Assembly (NCBI GenBank): GCA_017550745.1
Contig: JAFZOG010000060.1
Coordinates: 1 to 48,078 of the forward strand
Source: Clostridia bacterium
GTDB taxonomy: Bacteria; Bacillota; Clostridia; Christensenellales; Aristaeellaceae
DNA length: 48,078 bases
Reading direction: 5' to 3'
Positions 23,097 through 45,625 of this stretch are shown piece after piece. The position numbers and the translations under genes are program-made. A model generated the notes under the pieces. It was not told the origin of the DNA. It saw nothing but the letters and a program-made list of their open reading frames with translations, and did no database searches. How positions within the stretch are numbered: position 1 is the first letter of the stretch; each line of letters starts with the position of its first letter.

Positions 23097-23149
23097 GTTT
23101 TCTTCCTCCCCCATTGTTTCTGGTCGTATCCCCTGTATAACAGCATAGT

Positions 23150-23178
23150 ATGATAATCGCTGTTTTATGACCAATCAA
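23150..23178 (-). promoter_or_regulatory. Promoter of the D-Ala carboxypeptidase gene
   Basis: On the minus strand TTGATT (23173-23178) and TATCAT (23150-23155) are 17 bases apart. It diverges from the GGDEF-RHH promoter 35 bases away. Confidence 0.5.
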
Positions 23179-23203
23179 TAAAATTTTCAGAATATTATTT
23201 TTT

Positions 23204-23273
23204 AAATCATATTGACATATATTATAATCTATGATAATATGATTTCAGAAATCATATTCAGGAGGTCATATCA
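23204..23273 (+). promoter_or_regulatory. Promoter and TCATAT operator array of the GGDEF-RHH gene
   Basis: TTGACA (23212-23217) and TAATAT (23235-23240) are 17 bases apart. A perfect inverted repeat with 10-base arms, AATATGATTT (23236-23245) and AAATCATATT (23249-23258), overlaps the -10. The same AAATCATATT recurs at 23204-23213 over the -35 edge, and a TCATATC lies between the ribosome-binding site and the start codon. TCATAT thus occurs four times in about 65 bases in mixed orientation. This is the pattern expected for cooperative binding of ribbon-helix-helix dimers. Confidence 0.65.
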
Positions 23274-23909
23274 ATGAGCAAGAAGAGTGAAGCAGTCAAC
23301 GAAACGCTGAAATTCCCGCTGGGAGACGCCTTTGAGAAAGCTGTGACCGACTTCATGGAAGCGCATCCGGAGGGCGATGCGGAACTGGTGATTGCTGTGA
23401 TCGACATGGACAACTTTCTGCACATCAACGAGAACTTCGGCTACGAAGCGGGAGATCAGGTGCTGATCGAGATGGGCAGGCAGCTGGCATCCGGCCTGCC
23501 TAAAAACGCCGCTATTTACCGCATCGCCGGGGACGAGTTTGGCATCCTGTTCACAGGGATGGAGAAGGAAGAGGTTTTCCTGTTCATGGAGCAGAAGCGG
23601 AAAGCCTTCCGCGTGAAAGCGCCGGACGGCGAGGAAATGACCATCTCCGTGGGCATCGCCGCGGCGTTTGACGACGCCTCCCGGTATCAGGAGCTGATGC
23701 GCAAAGCGGACAGCGCCATGTATCGCGCCAAGTATGCCGGGCGCAACAAGGTGGCCCTGGCGCGGGAAGAAAAAATGGTGCCCAAGACCTCGCATTACAC
23801 TTCCGACCAATTGAAGCGCTTAAGCGCCCTTTCCAAGCGCGAGGGAATCGGCGAAGCCATCCTGCTGCGGGAAGCGCTGGATATGCTGCTGAAAAAGTAC
23901 CCCAACTGA
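23274..23909 (+). CDS. GGDEF domain protein with C-terminal ribbon-helix-helix DNA-binding segment
   Basis: 211 residues. Residues 35-165 are a GGDEF domain, with the metal and nucleotide motif VIDMDNFLHINENFGYEAGD (D44, D46) and signature AGDEF at 85-89 in place of GGDEF. The inhibitory RxxD site is absent. Residues 171-211 (KTSHYTSDQLKRLSALSKRE, then ILLREALDMLLKKY) read as a CopG-like ribbon-helix-helix. No membrane or sensory domain is present, so the protein is a soluble regulator. It starts with ATG after CAGGAGG, within a TCATAT operator array that it probably binds. Whether it makes, binds or ignores cyclic di-GMP or another nucleotide cannot be told; an A in the first motif position is tolerated in some active cyclases. 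Confidence 0.85.
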   Translation: MSKKSEAVNETLKFPLGDAFEKAVTDFMEAHPEGDAELVIAVIDMDNFLHINENFGYEAGDQVLIEMGRQLASGLPKNAAIYRIAGDEFGILFTGMEKEEVFLFMEQKRKAFRVKAPDGEEMTISVGIAAAFDDASRYQELMRKADSAMYRAKYAGRNKVALAREEKMVPKTSHYTSDQLKRLSALSKREGIGEAILLREALDMLLKKYPN

Positions 23910-24018
23910 CCCCCCTCAGCGGCACAGATGCTTTAAGATTCTATTGGAAAACGGATCCCAAAGATCATTATTCTTCAATAGATCATATGGGGATTGTGAA
24001 AACAGTCCTGTCCAAAAA

Positions 24019-24058
24019 ACAGAAATCTCCCGAGCGAAAGTGCCTGGGAGATTTCTGT
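24019..24058. terminator. Bidirectional terminator between convergent genes
   Basis: ACAGAAATCTCCC (24019-24031) pairs with GGGAGATTTCTGT (24046-24058), a 13-base stem. Minus-strand transcripts get a run of six Ts after it, plus-strand ones GTTTTAG. It serves the zinc-ribbon gene and the GGDEF-RHH gene. Confidence 0.85.
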
Positions 24059-24107
24059 GTTTTAGCTATAGAAGCCGGCAATTCGTTCAATAAGGGCAGA
24101 GAAACGA

Positions 24108-24839
24108 TCACCTTTTATGCCCTGACGGGCCGTGGGAAGGATGCTGGGAGGGGGCATGGGGTGCGGACTGCTGCATATTGTGGGCGGATGGATGTCCGGC
24201 GGCCCTATGATTGAACTGCGGTGTCGGCGGAGTCTTCCGGATTGTCCGCCTGGGTTCCACAGGAGCGGTGTTCAGCCTGGGGCGGAAGTTTCGCTGATAG
24301 GCCGGAGGTTCAGGCTTGTAGCGAATGTGGAACAGCCTTTCAAGCAGCGAAGGCTTCTTAAAACGGCGATAGGAACGGATTCTGTTGGAAACGGTCAGCG
24401 CTCCGATGATTGCCGCCGCTCCGGACAGAAGATTTCCGGCTTTATCGAAGATGGAGGACGTGGCGTTGGCCGTCAGATCCACGTATTGATCCGCCTGATT
24501 TGTGATGGACACCTGCGCACCGTATTCAGTAAACAGTTGAGCCACGGTTTGGGCTTCATTGGCGTTCAGTCTTTCGCCCACAACGACGGGGGCCATGTTC
24601 ACCAGATTCGTGGATTCCGCATCCGTATACCCAAATACATCTTCCAGCAGGTCTCCGGTCATGACTTTGCTGCACGTCCCGCAGGAAACCAGCACCAGGC
24701 TGTACTGATTATCCAGATTCGCCGTTGAAACAGCTTTATTCATCAGGGAAATGGACGCTGTTGTTTCAATCAGCGGCTGTCCGCAGTATGAGCAGAAATT
24801 ACCGCCGTTCACTTCGGCTCCGCAGTTCTTGCAATACAT
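24108..24839 (-). CDS. Zinc-ribbon protein with an L7/L12 C-terminal-domain-like segment
   Basis: 243 residues. An N-terminal zinc ribbon has C3, C6, C16 and C19 (CKNC, CSYC). Residues 40-115 resemble the ribosomal L7/L12 C-terminal domain in layout (… DLLEDVFGYTDAESTNLVNM, then APVVVGERLNANEAQTVAQL, then GAQVSI). A hydrophobic stretch at about 134-148 (AGNLLSGAAAIIGALTV) and a long proline-, arginine- and histidine-rich tail follow. It is the last gene after the Gld-type ABC operon, 51 bases downstream of the DUF4340 gene. Function unknown; the domain reading is by pattern. Confidence 0.7.
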   Translation of the reverse strand: MYCKNCGAEVNGGNFCSYCGQPLIETTASISLMNKAVSTANLDNQYSLVLVSCGTCSKVMTGDLLEDVFGYTDAESTNLVNMAPVVVGERLNANEAQTVAQLFTEYGAQVSITNQADQYVDLTANATSSIFDKAGNLLSGAAAIIGALTVSNRIRSYRRFKKPSLLERLFHIRYKPEPPAYQRNFRPRLNTAPVEPRRTIRKTPPTPQFNHRAAGHPSAHNMQQSAPHAPSQHPSHGPSGHKR

Positions 24840-35285: not shown

Positions 35286-35300
35286 ACCATCGAAAACATT

Positions 35301-35560
35301 CAGGCTGTCGAAAAACCTCCGGGATGTATCGAAGGGCCGCAGCCCTTCGATTTTTAAATCCGCAGGGGCCGAAGCGCCCGGAAAACGGTACAGTGTACCG
35401 TTTTCAGCGTAGGCCGGGCGGCAGCCCAAGGCGGTCGCCGGGGCCCGAAGCGCCCGGAAAACCTGCCCTTGGGCTGGTTTTCAGCGAAGGGCGGGCCGGA
35501 AGACCCCGGGCAGGCAGCTGAAAGCTGCTTCCGCTATCGAAAATACTTTTTCGACACCCT
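35301..35560. repeat. GC-rich multi-hairpin interspersed repeat, copy A
   Basis: It starts AGGCTGTCGAAAAA and ends TTTTTCGACACCCT, giving terminal inverted repeats. Inside are the hairpins GAAGGGCCGCAGCCCTTC and CAGCTGAAAGCTG. It contains an extra 76-base module (35387-35462) with a perfect hairpin on AAAACGGTACAGTGTACC, relative to copy B at 45466. The rest matches copy B almost base for base, including GCCGAAGCGCCCGGAAAAC. Confidence 0.75.
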
Positions 35561-45439: not shown

Positions 45440-45465
45440 AAAAAAACCGCCTCCTGCGGGGCGGT
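45440..45465 (-). terminator. Intrinsic terminator between the two ABC units
   Basis: On the minus strand ACCGCC pairs with GGCGGT around CCGCAGGA, followed by seven Ts. Its stem motif CCTCCTGCG recurs at 45710-45718, so the repeat element appears to have split or duplicated this site. Confidence 0.6.
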
Positions 45466-45625
45466 CAGGCTGTCGAAAAACCCCTGGGATGCATCGAAGG
45501 GCCGCAGCCCTTCGATTATTAATCCGCAGGGGCCGAAGCGCCCGGAAAACCTGTCCTTGGGCCGGTTTTCAGCGTAGGGCGGGCCGGAAGGCCCCGGGCA
45601 GGCAGCTGAAAGCTGCTTCCGCTAT
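45466..45625. repeat. GC-rich multi-hairpin interspersed repeat, copy B
   Basis: It begins CAGGCTGTCGAAAAAC and runs to GCAGCTGAAAGCTGCTTCCG, and matches copy A at 35301 without the 76-base insert. The right terminal repeat is not the same as in copy A; instead a separate long hairpin follows at 45627. Unlike the neighbours it carries no ORF. Confidence 0.75.

Follow-up and report, generated by a model that had tools for sequence, protein, structure and literature searches.

A GGDEF protein of Clostridia with a C-terminal ribbon-helix-helix domain and a conserved predicted operator at its own gene

A 48,078-nucleotide stretch of a Clostridia bacterium (assembly GCA_017550745.1, contig JAFZOG010000060.1), referred to here as the window, contains a gene (positions 23274..23909, + strand, an open reading frame of 211 aa with an ATG start) whose product joins a GGDEF domain to a ribbon-helix-helix (RHH) domain and whose promoter region carries a palindromic operator that accompanies the gene in its relatives. 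Judging from the sequence, the product is probably a soluble, free-standing GGDEF protein that would most likely act as a diguanylate cyclase, dimerize through its C-terminal RHH domain and repress its own gene.

The GGDEF domain occupies aa 20-159 (23331..23750, + strand), as placed by Pfam PF00990. The window protein scores 96.9 bits against a cut-off of 23.8 with PF00990 and 96.6 bits against 37.4 with TIGR00254, and its predicted whole-protein structure resembles the GGDEF diguanylate cyclases of the PDB. The complete GGDEF layout claimed in a first-pass annotation was recovered, with DMDNF at aa 44-48 and an AGDEF loop, in which the first G is replaced by A, at aa 85-89 (23526..23540, + strand); D44, N52, D61, D87 and E88 are all present. 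We take D44, N52, D61, R83 and K144 to be the counterparts of the metal- and guanine-binding residues of PleD. No sensor domain was recognised in the protein by the Pfam search, in agreement with the earlier description of a one-component protein, and the RHH is the only partner domain recognised. Membership of the PucR/CdaR family was rejected, the Pfam matches consisting of GGDEF, RHH_3 and two below their cut-offs, with no GGDEF_2 or HTH among them.

Toward the C-terminal end, the RHH domain and a nearly invariant lead-in, EEKMVPKT, together span aa 165-209 (23766..23900, + strand), an assignment supported by RHH_3, the model of the isolated segment and conservation. RHH_3 (PF12651) matches aa 176-209 with 31.4 bits against a cut-off of 21.6, and RHH_1, searched with the C-terminal piece alone, stays under its own (14.3 versus 20.5). 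Modelled in isolation, the C-terminal segment forms an extended stretch followed by two helices, and the best-aligned solved chains include the RHH domains of PutA, CopG, Arc, AmrZ and CdbA. The CopG-like RHH that had been proposed for this segment is supported both by the profile and by the alignment of the model with CopG, Arc, PutA and CdbA, and the domain search suggested at that time places GGDEF and RHH_3 alike above their Pfam cut-offs. As to the earlier concern that the segment might be a plain helix, the extended stretch, the two helices and the structural matches speak for an RHH, but the ribbon strand is absent from both structure models, which are monomer-only predictions. RHH domains work as dimers.

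Relatives were collected at 66 loci, encoding 59 distinct proteins. Among 150 genomes of the family, counting the own one, 16 full-length orthologs were identified, the window's own being one of them, and another search gave 50 further orthologs from 52 loci, L089 and L090 being dropped because they matched in the GGDEF part only. The sources are rumen and gut Clostridia, Lachnospiraceae, one Oscillospiraceae MAG, a Treponema MAG, two Spirochaetes MAGs and one Anaerolineae MAG. The spread is patchy, the RHH profile matching (at 1e-6, with the own genome in both sets) 8/297 genomes in the order and 4/398 in the phylum; the three further phylum matches (L113-L115), which lie outside the 59, look by eye like GGDEF-RHH proteins. 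Both Pfam families, GGDEF and RHH_3, are matched at E <= 0.01 by 39/39 proteins of alignment A1, which holds 39 of the 66 loci, and GGDEF_2 gives a weak match (E 0.0016) in one of these 39. Across the 59 proteins the commonest residue at a position has a mean frequency of 0.67 for aa 20-164, 0.89 for aa 165-209 and 0.95 for aa 165-176; by this measure of the aligned sequences, the RHH part is conserved more strictly than the GGDEF part. The loop reads GGDEF in 43 proteins, AGDEF in 5 (the window's and four others), SGDEF in 3, RGDEF in 2 and GGDQF in 2, and QGDEF, GGDAF, AADRF and GGEEY occur once each. Two observations concern single loci: on contig CAMEEX010000050.1 the closely related GGDEF-RHH genes L068 and L071 lie ~6 kb apart, with one operator each, and the protein of L054, from the Treponema MAG, is 63% identical to the window protein and groups among Clostridia in the tree, which may reflect horizontal transfer or a misbinned contig.

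The gene is preceded by a Shine-Dalgarno sequence, AGGAGG (23260..23265, + strand), and by a predicted sigma-70 promoter, TTGACA-17-TAATAT (23212..23240, + strand, 10/12 consensus positions); the latter is putative, a consensus match that is one of four promoter-like matches in 23100-24150. Two operator sites, neither assigned to a strand, are spaced 45 bp apart in this region. Operator O2 (23236..23258), AATATGATTTC-A-GAAATCATATT, is a perfect inverted repeat with 11-base arms and a 1-base spacer, and it lies over the predicted -10 (TAATAT, 23235-23240) and the start region; operator O1 (23191..23213) is an imperfect copy of the 23-bp site of O2 and overlaps the first two bases of the -35. 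The perfect inverted repeat over the -10 reported in the first-pass annotation is this same site and is real, but its arms and spacer, given there as 10+3+10, had to be corrected to 11+1+11. Two more TCATAT sites had also been listed: that at 23208 forms the right half of the imperfect O1, but the other, at 23266 between the Shine-Dalgarno sequence and the ATG, does not read TCATAT in the nearest relatives (L039, L010 and L041). A repeat like O2 turned up in 54 of 5000 dinucleotide-shuffled 124-bp sequences, which makes it on its own only moderately improbable in this AT-rich stretch; O2 is considered secure because it is conserved. Positioned as they are over or beside the -35, the -10 and the start region, the sites would fit repression.

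An operator, roughly RATATTATTTCnGAAATAATATY, was found upstream in 55/59 relatives, scored as at most 5 mismatches to AATATTATTTCnGAAATAATATT within a maximum of 330 bp of upstream sequence; 2 or 3 mismatches are seen in 44 of these 55, and outside the upstream site the locus has 5 to 11 mismatches in its best match. The upstream palindromes expected of the homologues are present in these 55, but they mostly carry TAATAT and not the TCATAT that had been predicted. Two non-overlapping sites occur in 23 of the 55. Site positions 6 and 18 are T and A in 49/55 and G and C in two (the window and L039), where both arms have changed together, and in 4/55 one arm alone has changed. Of the 41 loci for which a promoter was predicted, 30 have the best site centred near -46 to -32, 0 or +13 to +17 relative to the predicted start, and the other 11 fall outside those position classes; a fixed test, with the best site between -45 and +25 of that start, takes in 26/41 only, and promoter prediction was empty in 14 of the 55 loci examined. 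By the mismatch criterion the operator is missing in L024, L086, L087 and L088 (4/59). The half-site is rearranged in the distant relatives L087 (CAAATAATATG..CATATTATTTG) and L024 (ATAATATC..GATATTAT), no operator-like site was seen upstream of L086, and no clear one upstream of L088 and L113. In L115, a distant GGDEF-RHH protein with the ribbon EEMVMKSSYY, the upstream repeat is a different one, CATATATG-n5-CATATATG, which may point to a joint change of ribbon and operator.

In the genomes searched, close matches to the operator were found at no other gene. In the window's 3.75-Mb genome, O1 and O2 are the only sites at <= 3 mismatches to ATATNATTTCNGAAATNATAT (reversed control 0), and a search with ATATTATTTCNGAAATAATAT found a site upstream of the gene in 12/15 other gene-bearing genomes of the family. 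At <= 2 mismatches, all 10 sites in these 15 genomes (9/15 genomes having one) and all 15 sites in 10 more gene-bearing genomes (10/10), picked from the 50 loci of the second search for relatives, are at the gene, and all 25 lie upstream of the matched coding stretch, no more than ~270 bp away from it. The 15 family genomes without an RHH match have no site at <= 2 mismatches, and two of them have one with 3. Off-locus sites, all with 3 mismatches, number 4 in the 15 family genomes, 8 in the 10 more and 2 in the 15 gene-less genomes, versus 1, 7 and 1 in the reversed controls; 11 of these 14 fall inside an open frame, and of the remaining ones L146 overlaps a frame's end, L106 overlaps a possible gene start and L132, in a gene-less genome, lies between frames. 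Three gene-bearing genomes (G007, G013 and G039) have no site at <= 3 mismatches, and weaker sites, with 4 mismatches, are present at the gene in G007 and G013. As far as the genomes searched can tell, the operator goes with the GGDEF-RHH gene, and the protein therefore looks like an autoregulator without a visible regulon.

It might instead regulate many genes through weaker or differently arranged half-sites, self-repression being one target among them. Such half-sites, at <= 1 mismatch, do outnumber the reversed control in 6/7 genomes, with 16 versus 6 in the window's genome and 18 versus 2 in G120; however, the sites at the gene are part of these counts, most of the off-locus ones among the matches listed lack the operator core, and once the core is required the own genome holds just O1 and O2, and off-locus near matches in the other genomes searched are at or near control level. 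We regard a wide regulon as quite improbable. Less credible still, and in our view very improbable indeed, is that the operator belongs to another, unlinked regulator and that the RHH merely dimerizes the GGDEF domain. The site co-occurs with the gene and has no close match in the 15 gene-less relatives, the half-site recurs in rearranged form with the distant relatives L087 and L024, and the different palindrome of CATATATG accompanies the different ribbon of L115, all of which argues against that reading.

A further alternative concerns the GGDEF domain, which may mainly be a nucleotide sensor, with GTP, a cyclic dinucleotide or an alarmone in its active site switching the RHH repressor and with catalysis secondary or absent. 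E88 is missing in 4/59 proteins (GGDQF in two, GGDAF in one, AADRF in one). The tree calls for two or more such changes, of which one falls on a very long branch (L024), and three of the four loci (L020, L022 and L023) retain the operator; retention of the module therefore does not need catalysis. The clade of L020, L022 and L023, with a changed catalytic loop (GGDAF, GGDQF) and with RHH and operator kept, offers natural enzyme-dead candidates. The sensor alternative is also favoured by the RxxD feedback site, which the first-pass annotation had rightly reported as lacking and which is absent ahead of the loop in 59/59 distinct relatives, window included, and by MabR of the PucR family, in which a helix-turn-helix accompanies a GGDEF-like domain that reads HGTWL and lacks the catalytic motifs (PMC11617747). 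Against it, E88 is kept in 55/59 proteins and D44, N52 and D61 in 59/59, of which a pure scaffold would need none, and a sensor regulating its own gene alone would have no other visible output; R83 is likewise kept in 59/59, K144 in 56/59, and position 87 is D or E in 59/59. We regard a mainly sensory role as unlikely and retain the active, self-repressing diguanylate cyclase as the preferred reading.

The genome in which the gene resides has 48 GGDEF, 17 EAL and 1 PilZ matches, and c-di-GMP signalling is therefore probably present. The divergent upstream gene is D-alanyl-D-alanine carboxypeptidase-like, with rplS beyond it; no neighbour gene is conserved in the available flanks, the commonest neighbour cluster occurring in 8/66 loci, and no riboswitch reaches the Rfam gathering score within the window. 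Elsewhere in the window, a dispersed ~100-bp repeat lies at 35300-35410 and 45465-45560, each copy with the inverted repeat ATCGAAGGGCCGCAGCCCTTCGAT, and the 24-bp core of this repeat is present twice in the window and in 0/100 shuffles. The 243-residue protein encoded at 24111-24839 (- strand) shows by eye an N-terminal zinc-ribbon-like CxxC pair and has a weak, below-cut-off match (20.7 bits) to ribosomal protein L7/L12.

The scheme within which we infer catalysis, DNA binding, the sign of regulation and nucleotide control for the GGDEF-RHH protein runs as follows. Two RHH dimers would occupy each 23-bp operator, and O1 and O2 would jointly shut the promoter, clamping the protein level. GGDEF domains require two partners to join two GTP and the RHH acts as a dimer, so that an RHH dimer can serve both; it would keep two GGDEF domains paired, as this reaction requires, and the same dimer could make c-di-GMP. 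Least certain is that GTP or c-di-GMP in the GGDEF domain may alter DNA binding; alternatively, the operator-bound protein may have a changed cyclase activity, and either way the result would be a self-limiting source of c-di-GMP. In most diguanylate cyclases, control is exerted by a sensor or receiver domain. Tentatively, and with considerable doubt, a one-gene second-messenger thermostat may be pictured here, in which the cyclase's own operator is both expression brake and activity switch: on the 23-bp site neighbouring RHH dimers would lock the GGDEF domains in a single state, the DNA would be freed once these domains hold GTP or c-di-GMP, and a chromosomal site, not a sensor domain, would decide when the enzyme is produced and active. 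Provided that the cyclase is active, the locus would form a minimal circuit, with a second-messenger enzyme setting its own amount; the coupling of nucleotide and DNA binding could be addressed with one protein and one 80-bp DNA, and a well-defined operator and a natural family of variants, some with altered catalytic loops, are at hand, mainly from rumen and gut Clostridia.

A screen of the open-access literature, covering titles and the openings of abstracts, turned up no paper describing a GGDEF-RHH fusion, nor did a broader query for GGDEF fused to a DNA-binding domain return such a fusion; a search of the open-access literature for a cyclase that binds its own promoter also found none. 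The window protein resembles Arc, CopG and AmrZ in the RHH fold of its predicted C-terminal model; repressors of this type have a short palindromic operator at their own promoter and, to our knowledge, no enzyme domain. With PucR/MabR (PMC11617747) it shares a GGDEF fold and a DNA-binding domain in a single chain, but it keeps the GGDEF-type active-site residues and its DNA-binding domain is an RHH, not a helix-turn-helix. CdbA of Myxococcus xanthus is a small RHH protein with mutually exclusive binding of DNA and c-di-GMP and with occupancy of over 500 sites (PMC7156744); both are RHH proteins with a link to c-di-GMP, predicted in our case, whereas the RHH of the window protein is joined to a GGDEF domain and a single target is visible for it. 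Trifunctional PutA combines an N-terminal RHH with a flavoenzyme for proline and represses the put regulon (PMC5293562). Homology to PutA was rejected, no proline enzyme domain being among the Pfam matches of the window protein, and the likeness would be one of logic: an enzyme-type domain and an RHH in one chain, and a conserved palindrome at the own promoter, here seen in sequence. The window protein differs in its GGDEF domain, in the C-terminal position of its RHH and in a close site match at its own gene alone. On our best reading, the GGDEF-RHH module would work on the same principle as trifunctional PutA, except that its enzyme makes a signal and is not a metabolic one.
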